Shown here in pieces: positions 27,999 through 35,734 of a stretch of 64,000 nucleotides of DNA. Both the position numbers and the translations under genes were made by a program. Numbering within the stretch: position 1 is the stretch's first letter; each line of letters begins with the position of its first letter. The DNA lies in the NCBI GenBank assembly GCA_031291675.1, contig JARLIO010000082.1, forward strand, positions 62,001 to 126,000. Reading direction: 5' to 3'. Source of the stretch: Azospirillaceae bacterium (GTDB lineage Bacteria > Pseudomonadota > Alphaproteobacteria > Azospirillales > Azospirillaceae). Below the pieces are notes generated by a model, which was given only the letters and a program-made list of their open reading frames with translations, was not told where the DNA came from and did no database searches.

Positions 27999-28093
27999 CG
28001 CCCTTTCTTTCAGCCCCGATAAGGCGACCCGGCGACCGGGGCCCACAAGACCTGGTCCAGGGTGTCGGCGCCGGCACACAGCATGACCAGCCG
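27939..28093. repeat. direct duplication, copy B (gene-end junction)
   Basis: This 155-bp segment corresponds to copy A at 25708-25863, about 90 percent identical. It contains an orphan copy of the last 19 codons of the unknown gene and the authentic 3' end of epmA. Differences are mostly silent or conservative in the coding parts, concentrated in the short stretch between the two stop codons. Confidence 0.9.
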
Positions 28094-29071
28094 GTCGAAG
28101 CCGAGCGCGATCCCGGCGCAGGCCGGCAGGCCGAAGGTCAGGGCCGCCAAAAAATCCTCGTCGATCGGGAAGCGTTCGCCATAGATCTGCTGTTTCAAAT
28201 TCATATCGAATTCGAAACGACTTCGTTGCGCCTGGGGATCGGTCAGTTCGCCGAAGGCGTTGGCCAGTTCGACGGCGCAACAATACAGCTCGAACCGTTC
28301 GGCCAGCCGCGGGTCTTCCGGCTTGGGCCGGGCCAGGGCCGCCAGGGACAGCGGATAGTCGATCAGGACCGTCGGCCGCCCGATGCCGAGATGGGGTTCG
28401 ATCCGCTCCAGCGCGATGCGGAAGAACAGATCCTCCCAGCGGTCCCCGGGATGGGCCGGAATCCCGATCCGCGCGCCCTCGACCGCCAGCAGGTCCAGGT
28501 CTGGCGCGGCCGGATCGGGGGCGGTGGCCAGGACATCGATACCAGTATGGCGGTGAAAGGCTTCGGCGACCGGCAGGATCTCCCAATCGGCGAAAGGATC
28601 GCAACTGTGGCCGGCGAATTGGAACCGCGACCGGCCGGCGACCCCGGCGGCGGCGCGGACCAGGCCGATGCAATCATCGATCAGATCGCGATAGCCGGCA
28701 CCGGCGCGATACCATTCCAGCATGGTGAATTCGGGCTGGTGAGTTGCGGAACGCTCGCCGTTGCGATAGGCGCGGGCCAGTTGAAAGATCCGCGGCAGCC
28801 CGCCCGCCAGCAGCTTCTTCATCGCGAATTCCGGGCTGGTCTGCAGATAACGCACGGCCCGATCGTCGGGATGGGGGCCGCGCAGTTCGGTCGCGAAGGC
28901 CTGAAGATGAACCTCCATCCCCGGTGACACCTGGAGCGTCGGGGTCTCGACCTCCTCAAAACCGATCGCGGTGAAGAAGCGCCGGGTCGCGGCGGTGATG
29001 CGGCGTCGATCGGCGAGAAACGGTTGCTTGGCCCGCAGAATGTCGGGGTGCCACCACGGAATCACAGTCAT
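28010..29071 (-). CDS. epmA: EF-P--(R)-beta-lysine ligase (EpmA/GenX/PoxA), lysyl-tRNA synthetase-like
   Basis: This 353-residue class II synthetase paralogue lacks a tRNA anticodon-binding domain. Family landmarks include VETPTLQVSPGMEVHLQAF, YLQTSPEFAMKKLLAGG, FELYCCAVELANAFGELTD and the motif-3 end GIALGFDRLVML. EpmA attaches beta-lysine (or lysine) to a conserved lysine of elongation factor P. The efp gene is divergent and starts 143 bp away, which supports the assignment. No epmB (lysine 2,3-aminomutase) is in the window. The start MTVIPWWHPDIL matches the family. Its 3' end carries repeat copy B. Confidence 0.95.
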   Translation of the reverse strand: MTVIPWWHPDILRAKQPFLADRRRITAATRRFFTAIGFEEVETPTLQVSPGMEVHLQAFATELRGPHPDDRAVRYLQTSPEFAMKKLLAGGLPRIFQLARAYRNGERSATHQPEFTMLEWYRAGAGYRDLIDDCIGLVRAAAGVAGRSRFQFAGHSCDPFADWEILPVAEAFHRHTGIDVLATAPDPAAPDLDLLAVEGARIGIPAHPGDRWEDLFFRIALERIEPHLGIGRPTVLIDYPLSLAALARPKPEDPRLAERFELYCCAVELANAFGELTDPQAQRSRFEFDMNLKQQIYGERFPIDEDFLAALTFGLPACAGIALGFDRLVMLCAGADTLDQVLWAPVAGSPYRG

Positions 29072-29214
29072 TGGCCGGCAAATCCTTTGGCATTGGCCGG
29101 GCATTTGGCCCAGAATGACGTTTGACGGGCGCCGCTGGAGCAGCCCGATTGCTTGGCTGCGGGCAACCTGATAGGGTCCGCGGCCGCATTTCAGTCGATA
29201 GAGACGGTTTTCCC

Positions 29215-29781
29215 ATGAAGGTCAATGCCAACACCACGCGCCCCGGCCACGTGCTGGAACATAACGGCAAACTTTGGGTCGTTGCCAAGATCCAGATCGT
29301 GCAGCCCGGAAAGGGCGGCGCCTTCATCCAGATCGAAATGAGAGACGCGCGGACCGGAACCAAAACCATTGAGCGGTTCCGTACGCAAGAGTCGGTCGAA
29401 CGCGTTCGCCTGGACGATCAGGAGATGCAGTTTTTGTTCTCCGAGGGTGACGCCTTCACCTTCATGGACGAAACGACCTTCGAGCAGATCACGATCCCGC
29501 GCGACATCATCGGCGACCCGGCGGTCTTCCTTCAGGAGGGCATGAAGGTGTCGGTGCAGCTTTACGAAGGCGCGCCGCTGTCGGTCGAACTGCCGCAGAC
29601 CGTGACCCTGCTGATCGTCGAAGCCGACCCGGTCGTCAAAGGCCAGACCGCATCGTCCTCCTACAAGCCGGCCAAGCTTGAGAATGGCGTTCGCGTCCTG
29701 GTGCCACCCCATATCGAATCCGGTACGCGTATCGTCGTCGACACCGGCGACGGCAGCTATCTGGAACGTGCCAAGGATTAA
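29215..29781 (+). CDS. efp: elongation factor P
   Basis: This 188-residue translation factor relieves ribosome stalling at polyproline. Three domains are recognised from length and from PGKGGAF, which contains the modifiable Lys33 at the tip of domain I. The start MKVNANTTRPGHVLEH is typical of the family; longer in-frame reading is not meaningful. Divergent epmA supplies its modification. It is followed after nine bases by an inositol monophosphatase gene, the usual alphaproteobacterial arrangement. Confidence 0.97.
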   Translation: MKVNANTTRPGHVLEHNGKLWVVAKIQIVQPGKGGAFIQIEMRDARTGTKTIERFRTQESVERVRLDDQEMQFLFSEGDAFTFMDETTFEQITIPRDIIGDPAVFLQEGMKVSVQLYEGAPLSVELPQTVTLLIVEADPVVKGQTASSSYKPAKLENGVRVLVPPHIESGTRIVVDTGDGSYLERAKD

Positions 29782-29790
29782 TCGCGTATT

Positions 29791-30615
29791 ATGGCAACCC
29801 GCTCCGCCGTCATTAATGTGATGGCCAAAGCCGCCGAAAAAGCCGCCAGGGGACTGGTGCGCGATTTCGGCGAGGTCGAACAGCTTCAGGTTTCGCGCAA
29901 GGGTCCGGCGGATTTCGTGTCGACGGCCGATACCAATGCCGAAAAACTGTTGTGCGCGGAACTGGCCAAGGCCCGTCCTGACTATGGTTTCTTGCTTGAA
30001 GAGGGCGGAACCATCGAAGGACGGGACAAGAGCAATCGGTGGATCATCGATCCGCTCGACGGCACGACCAATTTCCTGCACGGCCTGCCGCACTGGGCGA
30101 TTTCGATCGCCCTGGAGCGCGAGGGCGAAATCATCGCCGGCATCGTCTACGAACCGCTGCGGGACGAGATGTTCTGGGCGGAAAAGGGACAAGGCGCCTT
30201 CAACAACCATCAAAGGCTGCGGGTTTCGGCCCGTCGTCGGCTTGATGAGGCGGTCCTGGCCACGGGCATCCCGTTCAAGGGCCGCGGCGATCATCCGTTG
30301 TTCCTGGCACAGTTGCAGACGCTGATGGCCGAATGCGCCGGGATCCGTCGTTTCGGGTCGGCCGCTCTCGATCTGGCTTATGTCGCGGCGGGTCGCTTCG
30401 ACGCCTATTGGGAGACCGGACTGAAGCCGTGGGACGCCGCCGCGGGGGCGTTGATCGTCGTCGAAGCCGGCGGTTTCGTCACCGAAATCGATGGCGGTCG
30501 CAATCCGGTCCACGGCAACAGCATCCTGGCCGCCAATGGTCAGCTGCATGCCCCGGTCGGCAAGATCCTGCGCGAGATCGGCAAAACCAAGCCGGCCGTC
30601 GCGACCGGAGCCTGA
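29791..30615 (+). CDS. suhB: inositol-1-monophosphatase family protein (SuhB)
   Basis: This 274-residue Mg-dependent phosphatase has LLEEGG (Glu70), DPLDGTTNF (Asp87, Asp90) and WDAAAGALIVVEAGG (Asp near 214), the metal-binding and catalytic signatures. SuhB hydrolyses inositol-1-phosphate and related sugar phosphates and has further RNA-associated roles in enterobacteria. It is 9 bp behind efp and probably co-transcribed. A 13-bp stem hairpin follows, likely ending the efp-suhB transcript. Confidence 0.93.
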   Translation: MATRSAVINVMAKAAEKAARGLVRDFGEVEQLQVSRKGPADFVSTADTNAEKLLCAELAKARPDYGFLLEEGGTIEGRDKSNRWIIDPLDGTTNFLHGLPHWAISIALEREGEIIAGIVYEPLRDEMFWAEKGQGAFNNHQRLRVSARRRLDEAVLATGIPFKGRGDHPLFLAQLQTLMAECAGIRRFGSAALDLAYVAAGRFDAYWETGLKPWDAAAGALIVVEAGGFVTEIDGGRNPVHGNSILAANGQLHAPVGKILREIGKTKPAVATGA

Positions 30616-30626
30616 AGATCCGCGAC

Positions 30627-30657
30627 CAGGCACGGCCCGATCACCGGGCCGTGCCTG
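30627..30657 (+). terminator. hairpin downstream of efp-suhB
   Basis: A perfect 13-bp stem, CAGGCACGGCCCG with its complement, closes over ATCAC. No clear T-run follows (CCAAAGTCG), so termination strength is uncertain. It lies right after suhB and before the OmpA-like gene. Confidence 0.6.
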
Positions 30658-30808
30658 CCAAAGTCGTTGTTGGCTCAGCCGCCATCGGCTAAGGTCGATG
30701 GCGCTGCAATCCAGGGGTTGGTCCTTGCGCGTAAAATCCCTTTGTTGCCGGTTGCTGCGGATTTCGATACCCCGCCCGGGAGCCGGCCGGAGAACGGGGT
30801 TGGCGGCG

Positions 30809-31702
30809 ATGCTGACCCGAAACGGCCGTTGCTGTGTTGTGGTGGTGGCGGCTTTGCTGATACCGATCACCGCTGTCGCGGCCAACAGCGCGCCGCCGCC
30901 CGCTTTTCCGCTTCCCGCCCACAAACCAAAACCGCCGGCTTCGTTCGTGCATAACGGCGCCGACTCGATCGCGCCCCCGGCCCCCGTCATCCCGCCGATG
31001 AAGACACCCGCCTTGACCATGGATGCCGGCGTGCCGCCGCCGGCCGGGCCCAAGCCGCGTCCACCGGCCCTCGTTGCGACGGTGCCCCCGACCTCTGCGC
31101 CCGCCGCCCCGCCGCTGGCGCCGCTCACCGGGCCGCATGCCCCCGTGGCGCCCCGGGTGCCGACCGTCGCAGCTCCCTCGATTGCCCGCCCAACAGTCCC
31201 GAGCGTCGTCGTGGCGCCACCATCCTCGGGAACGGCCGCCGGCAACACGGCCTCGGCGCCACAATCGCCGGCACCTGGCGCGGGTTCGGGTTCGGCTGCG
31301 ACCAGCCTCGCCGCCCTGCTGCCTTCGGTGCTTCATCCGGAAACCGCGCCGACCGCAACGACGCCGGCCAAGGCGTCGCCGGACCAGCCGCTGCCGCGCC
31401 GCAACATCGTGATCACCTTTGACACGAAATCGACCACGGTCGCCCCGACCAGCACCACGACGGTGGACCGGCTGATCGCGATGATGCGCCAGTCTGCCAC
31501 GATGCGACTCGAGATCCGTGGCTTTGCCGCCGGCACCCCCGACACGGTTCGCGATGCCCGGCTGCTGGCCCTGAAGCGCGCGATTTCGGTTCGTCAGGCC
31601 TTTGTCAATCAGGGCGTCCCGTCAACACGGATCAATGTGCGCGCGCTGGGAATTCCCGCCGACGGCCCGGCCGACCGGGTCGAAATCGATACGACGGAAT
31701 GA
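30809..31702 (+). CDS. OmpA-like peptidoglycan-binding periplasmic protein with proline/alanine-rich linker
   Basis: This 297-residue protein starts MLTRNGRCCVVVVAALLIPITAVAA, a plausible signal peptide. About 160 residues of Pro/Ala/Thr-rich linker follow, then a C-terminal OmpA-like domain (NIVITFDTKSTTVAP, then RLEIRGFAAGTPDTVRDARLLALKRAISVRQAF). The domain lacks the strictest NxxLSxxRA form, so peptidoglycan binding is likely but less certain. One base separates its stop from the MotA/ExbB-like gene, and the coiled-coil OmpA protein follows, so the three form one unit. Long Pro/Ala linkers are typical of cell-wall-spanning tethers. Confidence 0.75.
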   Translation: MLTRNGRCCVVVVAALLIPITAVAANSAPPPAFPLPAHKPKPPASFVHNGADSIAPPAPVIPPMKTPALTMDAGVPPPAGPKPRPPALVATVPPTSAPAAPPLAPLTGPHAPVAPRVPTVAAPSIARPTVPSVVVAPPSSGTAAGNTASAPQSPAPGAGSGSAATSLAALLPSVLHPETAPTATTPAKASPDQPLPRRNIVITFDTKSTTVAPTSTTTVDRLIAMMRQSATMRLEIRGFAAGTPDTVRDARLLALKRAISVRQAFVNQGVPSTRINVRALGIPADGPADRVEIDTTE

Positions 31703-31703
31703 C

Positions 31704-32840
31704 ATGACCCGGTCCCAAGGCACCCTTTACGCAATGGCCGCCTTCATCGTGGCGATTGTCGCCGTCGTGATCGTGCTGCTGCCCACGCTGATGCTCGGCT
31801 TTCGCGCCAACCCCGCCCTGAATGGCGTGATCGGGCTGGTGTTGGTCGCAGGAACGCTTCACTGCATCCGCCAGGTGCAGATCCTGAAGCCCGAGATCGA
31901 CTGGTTGCAGCAGTATCAGGCAACCGGCGTGCCACCCGGTGACGATCGCCAGCTGGTATTGCTGGCACCGATGGTGCGCCTGCTGGTGGCGCGCCGCGGG
32001 CAGATGACCCTGTCGCCGGCCGCATCGCGTTCGATCCTCGACGGGATCATCGCGCGGCTCGATGAGAACCGCGAACTGTCGCGCTATCTGGTGGGCCTGC
32101 TGATCTTCCTCGGCCTGCTGGGGACCTTCTGGGGCCTGCTGCAAACGGTCGAGACCGTTGGCGGCGTCATCAACAATCTCTCGGTCCAGGGAACGGATCT
32201 CGGCGCCATGTTCACCGAGATGCAGAAGGGGTTGTCGGCGCCCCTGGGCGGCATGTCCAAGGCCTTCAGCTCGTCGCTGTTCGGCCTGGCCGGCAGCCTG
32301 GTCCTGGGCTTCCTGGAGATGCTGGCCGCCCGGGCGCAGGATCGCTTCTGCAACGAGCTTGAGGACTGGCTGTCGGCCACGGCCCGGCCGGCGCCCGCCG
32401 CCGGCGTCAGCGAGGGCGAAGCCTCGGTTCCCGCCTATCTCCAGGCGCTCCTTGAACAAACCGCCGAGAATATCGACGCCCTGCAGCGCACCGTCGCCCA
32501 GTCCGAGGATGGCCGCCGCGCCGCCAACAACAATATGGCGGCCCTGATCGATCGGTTGAGCACACTGACCGACCAGATGCGGACCGAACAGCAATTGATG
32601 ATCCGGCTCGCGGAAAGCAATTTGGAATTGCGTCCGCTGCTGGCCCGGGTCGGCAACGCCCTCGACAGCCTGAGCGGCCTTGACGACATCAGTCGCCAGC
32701 ACATTCGCAACATCGATGCCCATCTGAGCCGCCTGATCGAGGACGGAGCCACGGGCCGGGTGCAGGCCGTTCAGGAAGTCCGGAGCGAGATCAAACTGCT
32801 GGCGCGCACGATTGCCGCGCTGGCTGACGAACCCCGGTAG
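31704..32840 (+). CDS. MotA/TolQ/ExbB-type proton-channel-like membrane protein
   Basis: This 378-residue protein has four predicted membrane segments (about residues 8-31, 38-57, 128-149, 188-208). The MotA/ExbB signature GLLGTFWGLLQTV sits in TM3, and the MQKGLSAPLGGMSKAFSSSLFGLAGSLV region precedes and forms TM4. The C-terminal 150 residues are a predicted cytoplasmic coiled coil. Such proteins pair with a MotB/ExbD-like partner to form ion-driven motors; here that partner is the next gene, after 8 bp. It is not the flagellar motor pair by context. The operon also includes the upstream OmpA-like protein. Confidence 0.8.
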   Translation: MTRSQGTLYAMAAFIVAIVAVVIVLLPTLMLGFRANPALNGVIGLVLVAGTLHCIRQVQILKPEIDWLQQYQATGVPPGDDRQLVLLAPMVRLLVARRGQMTLSPAASRSILDGIIARLDENRELSRYLVGLLIFLGLLGTFWGLLQTVETVGGVINNLSVQGTDLGAMFTEMQKGLSAPLGGMSKAFSSSLFGLAGSLVLGFLEMLAARAQDRFCNELEDWLSATARPAPAAGVSEGEASVPAYLQALLEQTAENIDALQRTVAQSEDGRRAANNNMAALIDRLSTLTDQMRTEQQLMIRLAESNLELRPLLARVGNALDSLSGLDDISRQHIRNIDAHLSRLIEDGATGRVQAVQEVRSEIKLLARTIAALADEPR

Positions 32841-32848
32841 GCGGGGCG

Positions 32849-34255
32849 ATGCCGTCGCCAAGAGGGCGCCGCCGCGCGCATCGCGCCATCAATGCCTGGC
32901 CCGGCTGGGTCGACGGTCTGTCGTCGCTGCTGATGGTCGTGATCTTCCTGCTGATGGTCTTCGTGGTTGCCCAGTTCTATCTGTCGGGAACCCTGACCGG
33001 CCGGGATGAGGCGTTGTCGCGCCTCAACCGACAGATCGCGCAACTGGCCGACATGCTCGCGATGGAACGCGAATCGGCCAGCGACATGAAATCAACGATC
33101 ACCCAGCTTTCGGCGGATTTGCAAAATGCCGCCGCGGAGCGCGCCCGCTTGACCGCGACCCTGGCCCAGACGCGCACCGAGCGCGACGCGCTGAGCGCGA
33201 GGTTGGCCGAGACCAGCGCCCGGCTCGGCGATGCCGGAACCCAGTCCCGGCAGACTGAACAGCAATTGGCAGACGCCGAAAAGCAGATCGAGGTCGGGCG
33301 CGAGACCATCACCCTGCATCTGCGCGAGATCGCCAGCCTGGAGGCCGATCTCGAAGCGCTGCGCAGCGCCCGTGACCAGTTGGAACAGCGCCTGGCCGCC
33401 GTGACGGCGCAACAGCTGGCGCCGGCGGAACGACAATCGCTGTTGCAGGCGCTGGGCGCGGAACGCGACCGCAGCAAGCAATTGAGCGACAGCCTCGCCA
33501 GCGCCCAGGAAAAAACGATGTTGGCGCAAAAGGAGATCGATCAGCGCGATATCCGCTTTCGTGACCTGATGGTCGCGCTCGATAACGAACAAACGGTCCT
33601 GGCGGGCGAAAAAAAACTGACCACCGAAAGCCAGGCCCAGGTCGCGCTGCTCAACCAGCAGGTCGCCGCCTTGCGTGACCAGTTGCAACAGCTCAACCAC
33701 GCACTGGAAGCCTCGGAGGCCAAGACGGCGCTGCAACAGAACCAGATCACCGACCTGGGTCAACGGCTCAACCTGGCCCTGGCCAACAAGGTCGAGGAGT
33801 TGGCGCGCTATCGCTCGGAGTTCTTTGGCCGGCTGCGCGAAACTCTGGGCGATCGACCCGATATCCGGATCGTCGGCGACCGCTTCGTGTTCCAGTCCGA
33901 GGTGCTGTTCCCGACCGGTTCGGCGGAAATCGAGGACAGCGGCAAGGTCCAACTGGCGGCGCTGGCCAAGACCCTGATCGAGATCGCCGGCCATATTCCG
34001 AGCGACGTCAACTGGATCCTGCGGGTCGATGGCCATACCGATGCCCGCCCGATCAAGAGCCCGGCCTTCCCGTCAAATTGGGAGTTGTCGGCGGCCCGCG
34101 CGATTTCCGTGGTCAAGTTTCTGACCGATCAGGGCATCGCCCCGGAACGCCTGGCCGCCGCCGGTTTCGGCGAGTTCCAGCCGATCGACTCCGGAACCAG
34201 CGATGCCGCCCTGGCCCGCAACCGGCGCATCGAACTGAAGCTCGACCAGCGGTGA
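32849..34255 (+). CDS. MotB/OmpA-like protein with long periplasmic coiled coil
   Basis: This 468-residue protein has a short basic N-terminus, then Asp22 followed by one membrane segment (about residues 23-46). This matches the MotB arrangement, in which an Asp at the start of the segment carries protons. About 280 residues of heptad-rich coiled coil follow (about 50-330), then an OmpA peptidoglycan-binding domain with VDGHTDARPI, NWELSAARAISVVKFL and RNRRIEL. It partners the MotA/ExbB-like gene upstream. The coiled coil is several times longer than in MotB or ExbD, so the motor would reach far from the membrane. Function is unknown. Confidence 0.85.
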   Translation: MPSPRGRRRAHRAINAWPGWVDGLSSLLMVVIFLLMVFVVAQFYLSGTLTGRDEALSRLNRQIAQLADMLAMERESASDMKSTITQLSADLQNAAAERARLTATLAQTRTERDALSARLAETSARLGDAGTQSRQTEQQLADAEKQIEVGRETITLHLREIASLEADLEALRSARDQLEQRLAAVTAQQLAPAERQSLLQALGAERDRSKQLSDSLASAQEKTMLAQKEIDQRDIRFRDLMVALDNEQTVLAGEKKLTTESQAQVALLNQQVAALRDQLQQLNHALEASEAKTALQQNQITDLGQRLNLALANKVEELARYRSEFFGRLRETLGDRPDIRIVGDRFVFQSEVLFPTGSAEIEDSGKVQLAALAKTLIEIAGHIPSDVNWILRVDGHTDARPIKSPAFPSNWELSAARAISVVKFLTDQGIAPERLAAAGFGEFQPIDSGTSDAALARNRRIELKLDQR

Positions 34256-34302
34256 TCCGCGAAACTTCGCCCGCGCCAAGCCCGACCCGCGGCGCGTGGC
34301 GG

Positions 34303-34524
34303 TCAGACGAACATGTCGAGGAACATGCCGCGTCGATAATGATCGGGCAGCGTCAGGACGCCATCAACCAGCAACGCCGCCAGTTCCCGCAAGGTCGGGA
34401 TGCGCTGACGAAAACCACGGCCGCGCCCGGTGCCGATGGCGCGGGGCAACAGGATCCGGCCGCCACCATCGTCGGGCCGAATCAGACCGCTGCCAGATCC
34501 TTCAATAATGCGCGGCGCCGCCAT
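34303..34524 (-). CDS. small hypothetical protein
   Basis: This 73-residue reading frame starts MAAPRIIEGSGSGLIRPDDG and ends DHYRRGMFLDMFV. It lies antisense to nothing else, just downstream of the convergent coiled-coil gene. It has no membrane segment or motif I recognise. Composition looks protein-like (LRELAALLVDGVLTLPDHY), so I keep it as a weak candidate, without an assigned function. Confidence 0.4.
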   Translation of the reverse strand: MAAPRIIEGSGSGLIRPDDGGGRILLPRAIGTGRGRGFRQRIPTLRELAALLVDGVLTLPDHYRRGMFLDMFV

Positions 34525-34769
34525 GGCCAATCCACCCTGTTCGCGATTTCACCCAGGCAGAACCGTATTGCCGCCTGTGATCCCGTCAGACTATCACGAA
34601 ACCGGGATCCACGGCGATGGGCAAATACTCATCCTGCAGCCACCGTCGGCCGCATCGCACCCCGTCCGCCGGCCCCCGGTGATGCCTGCCGATCGCCCCG
34701 CAACATCACCCTCTTGCATCGAGGTAAAAACTTCTGTATAAGCGCCGCTCGCTTAGAGGGATCTCGGCC

Positions 34770-35097: not shown

Positions 35098-35499
35098 TCA
35101 CGCCGCGTTGCGCCGCACCTGCTCATCCAATCGTGCGACCCGCATATAGAGCCGGTGGCTGCGGTCGAGCAAACCCCGCAGCCCGGCCGGCAGTTGCTCA
35201 TTATCCGGCCCCGACGGATCGGAGCAGATTTCACCGCCTGACAGTGCAAATTCGTCGGAAATCACCTGCTCGATCGTCAGTTCGTTGGCATGCAACGCCT
35301 TTTGCGCCAACAGCCAGGCCATGACCTGGGTCAGGCGACTGGTCACCCGCAACGACTCATAACTGACCTGCAAGCGCACATGCGGCGGCAGGTTTCTTTG
35401 ATCGTTCGCTTCGTTGTAGGCGATGTAATTTCGCGCTTCGATCAGCAGCGCCATCGTGTCATCGTATGTACGATTGAAGAACGCCGTCGGGCCACTCAT
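35098..35499 (-). CDS. DUF1465 protein, RcdA-like (regulator of CtrA degradation)
   Basis: This 133-residue helical protein resembles the DUF1465 family, whose Caulobacter member RcdA assists ClpXP-mediated degradation of CtrA. Marks visible are FFNRTYDDTMALLIEARNYIAY at the N-terminus and LRVTSRLTQVMAWLLAQKALHANELT in the middle. The start MSGPTAFFNRT follows GGGGAAG. It sits beside rpmE in a tail-to-tail arrangement. Family membership is by pattern; a true cell-cycle role in this organism is inferred. Confidence 0.75.
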   Translation of the reverse strand: MSGPTAFFNRTYDDTMALLIEARNYIAYNEANDQRNLPPHVRLQVSYESLRVTSRLTQVMAWLLAQKALHANELTIEQVISDEFALSGGEICSDPSGPDNEQLPAGLRGLLDRSHRLYMRVARLDEQVRRNAA

Positions 35500-35734
35500 G
35501 GTTCTTCCCCCATCCGGGTTCGCCACACCCGTCGCCGCCGTTGCAAGGCGTAGTCTAACAGCGCCTGACGTTTTCTGTAAGACAATAGTACCGGGCGCTG
35601 ACGCCCGCTGACGTCGAATTCCGCGGCCCTCGATCAGCGGGACCGCCGGCGGCCTCGACACGACCGTGCCCGAGAATAATCCGGGCCACTCCCCTTGACC
35701 CCCGGCCGCCCCCATCCCAAGTCAAATAACAGCA

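Follow-up and report, generated by a model that had tools for sequence, protein, structure and literature searches.

Few types of 5:2 ion-driven motors are known, and a further one would be an overlooked class-wide component of the cell envelope. According to a published comparison, the B subunits of non-flagellar motors lack an OmpA-type domain (PMC12505986). For types I and II of the anti-phage system Zorya, another report describes Asp24 of ZorB as crucial for defence (PMC11890865). Experimental data are available for two adjacent genes of Komagataeibacter hansenii, which were called motA and motB and which encode a MotA-like protein of 348 aa with four predicted membrane helices and a MotB-like protein of the OmpA type (321 aa; 46% identity, over 98%, with an OmpA/MotB protein of Rhizobium) (PMC6570709, PMC6315621). 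When this pair was overexpressed in the non-flagellated K. hansenii, the cells were longer and chained and the colonies spread faster, GFP fusions were located at one or both poles, and the cell shape of E. coli was unaffected by these genes (PMC6570709). Judged from the text and the table of that paper, motA and motB are probably orthologs of the A and B genes analyzed here; the loci that we compared did not include any under the title Komagataeibacter. Overexpression phenotypes need not reveal the normal role of the pair. None of the papers found treats the pair as a system, and the papers listed for PRK09039 appear unrelated by title and abstract.

The window is a stretch of 64,000 nucleotides from an Azospirillaceae bacterium (contig JARLIO010000082.1). 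It carries a compact unit of three genes, in which A starts 1 bp past the first gene (P0001) and B starts 8 bp past A. These ORF coordinates agree with the layout described in the initial annotation, and the pair of A (31704-32840) and B (32849-34255) is the core of the unit. The features are as follows:

30809..31702, + strand: P0001, first gene and optional third member of the unit; secreted, with a Pro/Ala linker and a diverged OmpA-like domain (ORF, 297 aa)
31415..31651, + strand: OmpA-like domain of P0001, residues 203-281 (Pfam PF00691; Arg kept, Asp lost)
31704..32840, + strand: P0002, A subunit of the MotA/ExbB/TolQ/ZorA type, 378 aa, with a cytoplasmic C-terminal coil
32124..32126, + strand: Thr141 codon of A, GT motif, pore position in transmembrane helix 3 (invariant; alignment)
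32274..32276, + strand: codon for Ser191 in transmembrane helix 4 of A, where TolQ/ExbB have Thr (invariant; alignment)
32849..34255, + strand: P0003, B subunit, 468 aa, with a single membrane helix, a long coiled coil and a MotB-type OmpA domain
32912..32914, + strand: codon for Asp22, where the membrane helix of B begins (invariant in aligned rows)
32984..33847, + strand: coiled coil of B, residues 46-333, with LAPA at 188-191 between two helices (AlphaFold2)
33866..34246, + strand: predicted wall-binding domain of B, OmpA/MotB type, with Asp398, Asn410 and Arg417 invariant

The B subunit is already catalogued as a member of NCBIfam NF006543 (PRK09039.1-2; 490 bits, E 5.9e-147, cut-off 305), a family that bears a name ('peptidoglycan-binding protein') and no assigned function. 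Its AlphaFold2 model (mean pLDDT 83, pTM 0.40) involves a helix from residue 20 to 187, a break at 188-191, a second helix from 192 to 333 and an OmpA fold at 340-466; each of the two coil helices has about 142 residues. B has a single membrane helix, which begins at residue 20 and carries the conserved Asp at its start. We found Asp22 to be invariant in all 42 rows of alignment A2 and in all 54 rows of alignment A4, where it lies in the signature WPGFVDAL (WPGWVDGL in P0003). A lack of conservation of this residue had been named beforehand as an observation that would speak against a motor, and the residue passed this test. The OmpA residues Asp398, Asn410 and Arg417 are invariant in the same two alignments, and the best NCBIfam matches of B beyond PRK09039 are MotD and MotS. 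The Asp, the coiled coil and the OmpA domain assigned to B at the outset are therefore all present. For the idea that the coil makes B a stator spanning the periplasm the situation is less favorable. Among B proteins, which were collected with a pattern containing the Asp and hence provide no test of Asp22, coil length varies from 123 to 691 residues with a median of 252, which corresponds to about 37 nm if straight. Since these lengths vary and are often too long, a straight periplasmic strut is doubtful.

In the AlphaFold2 model of the A subunit (mean pLDDT 81.6), four long helices at the N-terminus precede a long coil at the C-terminus. Over residues about 27-237, which leaves the coil outside, structure comparison by VIA matched A to ExbB (Z 11.8), TolQ (11.7) and ZorA (11.4) with rmsd values of 3.6-4.0 over 187-191 residues, and to MotA with Z 10.0; Z-values below 13 are modest for helical bundles, and the assignment of the fold is backed by the alignment of the pore motif. 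Over the same region, Foldseek likewise supported this type of fold (E 5.1e-4). Thr141 and Ser191 are invariant in alignments A1 (40 rows) and A3 (74 rows), and Thr141 is aligned with the GT of TolQ, ExbB and ZorA. A thus has the membrane and pore fold of the ExbB/TolQ/MotA type, and the initially proposed pairing of such a protein with a MotB-like B subunit is borne out.

These data suggest, with about even confidence on our side, that A and B form a chromosomal, mostly vertically inherited, two-gene, proton-driven envelope motor of the 5:2 class, which probably does housekeeping work at the pole or the division site. The original reading as an uncharacterized ion-driven envelope motor remains the best one, with a weakened role for the coil and with its third element, P0001 as an additional wall anchor, lacking support. 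P0001 has a hydrophobic N-terminus, a linker of 174 residues (46 Pro, 37 Ala) and a PF00691 match at residues 203-281 (45.4 bits, cut-off 27.2). Asp and Arg of the OmpA domain are residues that we take to form the diaminopimelate (peptidoglycan) site. In the P0001 family all 90 rows retain the Arg, but the Asp is missing in 82 of them (D in 8/90; Ala in P0001 itself) and the Asn is mostly Ala, so that the family does not look like an OmpA-type peptidoglycan binder. A gene of this family lies directly upstream of A in 89/139 loci, and its product is probably a secreted accessory protein whose OmpA-like domain has diverged; some lineages lack the gene.

To describe the distribution of the pair, we searched 289 alphaproteobacterial genomes and found A in 198, B in 195 and both in 192. 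About two thirds of the class genomes sampled, flagellated or not, thus carry the pair; it is not universal, as neither gene was detected in 88 of them. A is mostly single-copy. The usual gene order is efp-suhB-(ompA-like)-A-B, and the survey of this neighborhood suggested with the initial annotation showed it to be conserved: at 60 loci we found EF-P in 48, a SuhB-like protein in 54 (one of them a distant antisense match), the OmpA-like protein in 44 and B in 58. Since both gene content and gene order recur in dozens of genomes, the arrangement is far beyond chance. Besides the translation and metabolism neighbors efp and suhB no conserved partner gene was found; DUF1465 was considered as partner and rejected, being close to B in just 13/98 loci. 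Eight reduced genomes of 0.7-1.1 Mb, chosen for being A carriers, contain A in 8/8 cases (six without internal stops) and B in 8/8; in several reduced genomes the two genes are not adjacent.

An accessory or spare flagellar stator would fit the MotB-type domain of B, the MotD and MotS matches and the two MotA1 genes in the window genome. A has four membrane helices like MotA and PomA, and B shares with their partners the Asp, the membrane helix and the OmpA wall domain. However, FliG, which occurs in 176 of the 289 genomes, is statistically unlinked to A (Fisher p 0.60): 71 of the 192 pair-bearing genomes give no FliG match, 51 genomes carry FliG without A or B, and none of the eight small genomes is on the FliG list. 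Moreover, the pore motif of A is GT vs AA in MotA/PomA, A matches no NCBIfam MotA model at E 0.1, and it falls outside the MotA1 clade. We therefore rejected the stator reading on FliG independence and tree position, and consider it very improbable. FliG and FlhA were not found in the window genome either, but because of its two MotA1 genes we do not claim that the organism is non-flagellated.

The closest relationship of A is to Zorya. All 40 A1 members match a ZorA model at E <1e-6, the closest sequence of solved structure is a ZorA (2.7e-6), and in a tree in which ZorA3 was the ZorA type represented, the A core clusters with 12 ZorA3 rows in a single clade (support 99/92) apart from TolQ/ExbB and MotA1. 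By these sequence comparisons A and ZorA are of common ancestry. The likeness is above all to Zorya III (ZorA3 with DUF802) and extends to B, since an OmpA domain is also found in ZorB (a ZorB3-like protein) and Asp22 parallels ZorB D24 of types I and II. The pair might accordingly serve in anti-phage defence, as a motor that detects disturbance of the envelope and passes a signal to an effector whose gene lies elsewhere. Yet a shared clade does not carry function, and Zorya loci place ZorA/ZorB next to ZorC-ZorD, ZorE or ZorF-ZorG, none of which combinations occurs among the scanned neighbors; these also contained no ZorC/D/E or DUF2894/DUF3348 protein. A lacks the long ZorA tail (its cytoplasmic tail has about 135 residues), B has a long coil, and the pair is class-wide, mostly single-copy, kept in reduced genomes and set in a recurring housekeeping neighborhood. 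A defence function thus appears improbable. The reverse direction, in which an early alphaproteobacterial housekeeping envelope motor, combining an A subunit of the Tol/Exb kind with a MotB-like B of the OmpA type, was the source of the Zorya III motor, is a possibility that we put forward tentatively and regard as rather doubtful. If this were true, bacterial ion-driven motors would include one more basic type, and the rule that OmpA-type anchors are absent from non-flagellar motors would have an exception. The pair bears on the origin of Zorya motors and also on the split drawn in PMC12505986, since B has an OmpA-type domain and yet occurs without a flagellum.

The families of the scanned neighbors were EpmA, EF-P, SuhB-like, DUF1465 and HSP20, so that for these genes the initial statement that no flagellar, Ton, Tol or Zorya genes are adjacent is correct; the family scan covered the neighboring genes and the remaining window was covered as ORF list. 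No RNA families were detected in 28800-34600, and scans for promoters and terminators gave no excess over shuffled sequence.

A second energizer of the Tol/Ton kind, acting on the outer membrane via B or the secreted first protein, also has to be weighed. A resembles TolQ and ExbB in its fold and its GT pore motif, B carries a proton-type Asp, and the cell elongation seen upon overexpression resembles the effect reported for tolQ/tolR overexpression (PMC6570709). Where tolQ and the unit lie on one contig, they are 12-31 kb apart in 26/29 genomes; both positions were listed for 57 genomes, and 28 of these, like the window genome, have them on different contigs. However, ruv, glycolysis and other housekeeping genes separate the two. 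In Sinorhizobium meliloti about 35 kb with ruvAB, zapA, tkt-gap-pgk-fba and rpmE lie between ybgC and A, and in L205 the ORFs after tolQ look, on inspection by eye, like ybgC, ruvB, ruvA, ruvC and yebC. We treated this linkage as old gene order and as weak functional evidence. In addition, A has four membrane helices vs three and gives no match to the NCBIfam TolQ model, B has a wall-binding-type OmpA domain where TolR and ExbD have their own domain, and the unit lacks a TolA/TonB-like arm. The window genome retains a separate TolQ (278 bits, cut-off 221) along with ExbB and MotA genes, and TolQ was found in 111/114 class genomes. We consider such an energizer possible but unlikely.

Coming back to the preferred reading, a proton-driven housekeeping motor, the analogy to 5:2 motors suggests that two B subunits would be ringed by five A subunits and that protons would move past Asp22 in B and a ring of Thr141/Ser191 in A, turning A against B. 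The MotB-type domain, with its conserved residues, would hold B in the peptidoglycan via a coil of variable length. Output would probably run through the coil that A has in the cytoplasm (residues about 244-375), turned against a cytoplasmic partner encoded outside the unit; a periplasmic TolA/TonB-like arm is less likely, as it is absent from the unit. The most likely job would be housekeeping of the envelope at the pole or the site of division, in addition to that of Tol-Pal, as suggested by the class-wide retention, the retention in the 0.7-1.1 Mb genomes and the overexpression and localization data from Komagataeibacter. Instead of a motor, the pair might be a proton channel under regulation or a passive tether between wall and membrane. 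The unconstrained coil length would suit a tether, and work output is a predicted property of the pair. A tether, however, would not need invariant Asp22, Thr141 and Ser191 or a whole pore motif, and we consider the channel or tether reading improbable. Because Asp22 is conserved, the motor claim is directly testable in tractable strains.

A search of plasmids returned five records, all of them replicons from Rhizobiaceae that measure 3.5-4.6 Mb and are classed as plasmids. In S. meliloti, the B-family gene is annotated beside a 'MotA/TolQ/ExbB proton channel family protein'.

In the window, the three open reading frames described by the initial annotation were confirmed, with a spacing of 1 bp and then of 8 bp. 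They are embedded in the following neighbourhood:

28010-29104, minus strand: EpmA, upstream of the unit and divergent from EF-P
29215-29781, plus strand: EF-P, upstream of the unit
29791-30615: SuhB-like phosphatase, upstream of the unit
30809-31702: first gene of the unit (product P0001)
31704-32840: A subunit (P0002)
32849-34255: B subunit (P0003)
35098-35505, minus strand: DUF1465 protein (101.5 bits), downstream of the unit
Downstream of the unit: HSP20 protein

DUF1465, which we take to be the family of the cell-cycle adaptor RcdA, was found near the B gene in 13/98 loci and an EpmA match near the unit in 11/60. The window genome has a size of 5.9 Mb, and the best named matches of its A gene were Azospirillum loci (61-62%).

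When P0002 was compared with the Pfam model MotA_ExbB, only a weak match under the cut-off was obtained (E 0.012), and none of the NCBIfam models for TolQ, ExbB and MotA was matched at E 0.1. ZorA models matched P0002 (best 1.6e-13) as well as 40/40 members of an A alignment. The predicted structure (mean pLDDT 81.6) aligned with ExbB, TolQ, ZorA and MotA at Z values of 11.8, 11.7, 11.4 and 10.0, which for helical folds count as modest. The pore motifs nevertheless agree. Thr141 (GT motif, transmembrane helix 3) and the hydroxyl of Ser191 (helix 4) align with TolQ, ExbB and ZorA, and both residues are invariant in alignments of 40 and 74 rows. In contrast, MotA1 lacks the GT motif.

A tree of the A core was calculated from 59 rows (21 unit rows, 12 ZorA3-like rows, TolQ, ExbB, MotA1 and one odd row, L199). 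Here, the unit and ZorA3-like rows formed one side of a branch (99/92), with TolQ, ExbB, MotA1 and L199 on the other. The ZorA3-like rows, which originate from Pseudomonadota genomes outside Alphaproteobacteria, were nested among the unit rows on a long branch with weak support (88/44). The two that were scanned (loci L231 and L232) matched ZorA3 models at >800 bits. At L231, the A gene is followed by a gene for a ZorB3-like OmpA protein, with DUF2894 and DUF3348 proteins flanking, and this locus is Zorya III. At L241:2021-3807 (minus strand), a 333-aa MotA_ExbB protein with a long tree branch adjoins a 263-aa membrane/coiled-coil protein, in which no OmpA domain was detected; this two-gene set may be a further motor pair that is not yet catalogued.

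P0003 is a member of the NCBIfam family NF006543 ('peptidoglycan -binding protein'), which it matches at 490 bits vs a cut-off of 305. Since this family is already catalogued, albeit without function, and public genomes carry annotations for these proteins, the parts are already known. For the pair as its own system across Alphaproteobacteria, we found no description among the open-licence papers listed in our searches (preprints excluded). Asp22, which sits within the signature WPGFVDAL, is invariant in 42/42 and 54/54 aligned B rows, and three residues of its OmpA domain, Asp398, Asn410 and Arg417, are likewise invariant in these two alignments. The available text on Zorya I and II describes ZorB D24 as crucial for defence (PMC11890865), which supports our reading of Asp22 by analogy. 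Non-flagellar B subunits are described as lacking an OmpA-type domain (PMC12505986), and the A-B pair, like Zorya, departs from this split.

An AlphaFold2 model of P0003 (54 rows, mean pLDDT 83, pTM 0.40) involved a helix (20-187), a LAPA break (188-191), a second helix (192-333) and then the OmpA fold. The near-equal coil helices would suit a hairpin, but the pTM leaves this choice unsettled. Among 127 B proteins, the coil comprised 123-691 residues (median 252), and as a single straight helix it would measure about 18 to 103 nm; the B protein of S. meliloti has 342 aa. Such spans often exceed the width of the periplasm, so that many species must either have the coil folded back on itself or place it alongside the wall.

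The P0001 family is encoded directly upstream of A in 89/139 loci, and its members combine a signal-like N-terminus with a linker rich in Pro and Ala and a diverged OmpA-like domain. Pfam assigned the general OmpA domain only, and NCBIfam yielded only OmpA-domain matches under the cut-offs. In OmpA, Asp and Arg have diaminopimelate binding roles. When the family was set against the OmpA site of B, Arg was present in 90/90 rows, Asp in 8/90, and the Asn position was Ala in 80/90. These losses render it doubtful that the first protein is a second wall anchor, as originally proposed. The S. meliloti pair has no P0001-type gene annotated next to it, which places the first gene outside the core. 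This widespread secreted family (the window gene and 89 related loci) carries the motif ARRLSLSRALAVRSYLIEQGVRSTRIDVRALG.

Among 289 alphaproteobacterial genomes searched, 198 carried A, 195 B and 192 both. FliG was found in 176 and its occurrence was independent of A (Fisher p 0.60): 71 genomes had the pair without FliG and 51 FliG with neither A nor B. Around 60 units (one locus per genome, some cut by contig ends), we found B in 58, a SuhB-like gene in 54 (one a distant antisense match), EF-P in 48 and an OmpA-like gene in 44. A second set (79 loci on titled contigs) gave B in 78, SuhB in 58 and EF-P in 56. At L036 (genome G005), EF-P, SuhB-like and A genes follow in order, but B was not detected in this genome. 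A genes with 47-51% identity occur on contigs titled Gammaproteobacteria, Rhodanobacteraceae and Mesoflavibacter (L118, L130, L166), titles that may be wrong.

In reduced genomes, picked because they matched, A was present in 12/12, free of internal stops in 10/12 and adjoined by B in 5/12 (open reading frames read by eye). B was found in 8/8 of those with 0.7-1.1 Mb and without a FliG match; a ninth (G268, 1.1 Mb) had one. Across the phylum, 92/299 genomes matched at E 1e-10. Outside the class, strong matches (E <1e-99) came from five genomes (G501, G423, G357, G412, G436), and the others (1e-11 to 1e-17) lay nearly all in long reading frames of ~700 to 1100 codons. The full-strength relatives of the pair in G501, G423 and G357 (L242, L243, L244) have different neighbours and were perhaps acquired by horizontal transfer.

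The only experimental evidence we found on such a pair comes from Komagataeibacter hansenii ATCC 23769. According to two reports (PMC6570709, PMC6315621), motA (348 aa) and motB (321 aa) lie side by side in this strain and are the sole Mot homologues in a genus lacking flagella. Overexpression of either gene gave longer cells, frequent septate chains, more colony spreading and looser cellulose, and E. coli expressing them appeared normal. GFP fusions were located at one pole of short cells and at both poles of long ones, and the authors describe the partner as unknown. Their MotB shares 46% identity over 98% of its length with a Rhizobium OmpA/MotB protein, which fits the short B members, and thus, judging from the published description, these genes are likely orthologs of the A-B pair. 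In Azospirillum, FlcA is reported to up-regulate a MotA/TolQ/ExbB family member, which the cited passage leaves unnamed (PMC4264754).

Conserved residues, domains, gene order, distribution and clade were directly seen for the A-B pair. Mechanistically, the subunits would assemble as A5B2, with B anchored in the wall and protons driving a rotation of A. The output would pass through the cytoplasmic coil of A, and pole or septum would be the likely workplace.

The pair shares its cell with other motor types. The window genome also encodes a separate TolQ (278 bits, cut-off 221), a separate ExbB (288.6 bits) and two flagellar-type MotA1 genes on contig C88:

C88:141204-142052, minus strand: MotA1 in locus L248 (348 bits)
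C88:260773-261621, plus strand: MotA1 in locus L249 (332 bits)

FliG and FlhA were not found in this genome, which may reflect either a gap in the assembly or the loss of the flagellum, with the stators left as relics. A MinD-like reading frame (read by eye) lies near the first MotA1 gene. TolQ was present in 111/114 alphaproteobacterial genomes. The distance from the unit to tolQ was 12-31 kb in 26/29 same-contig genomes across the class (e.g. L204, L205), and in S. meliloti the unit lies ~35 kb from ybgC.
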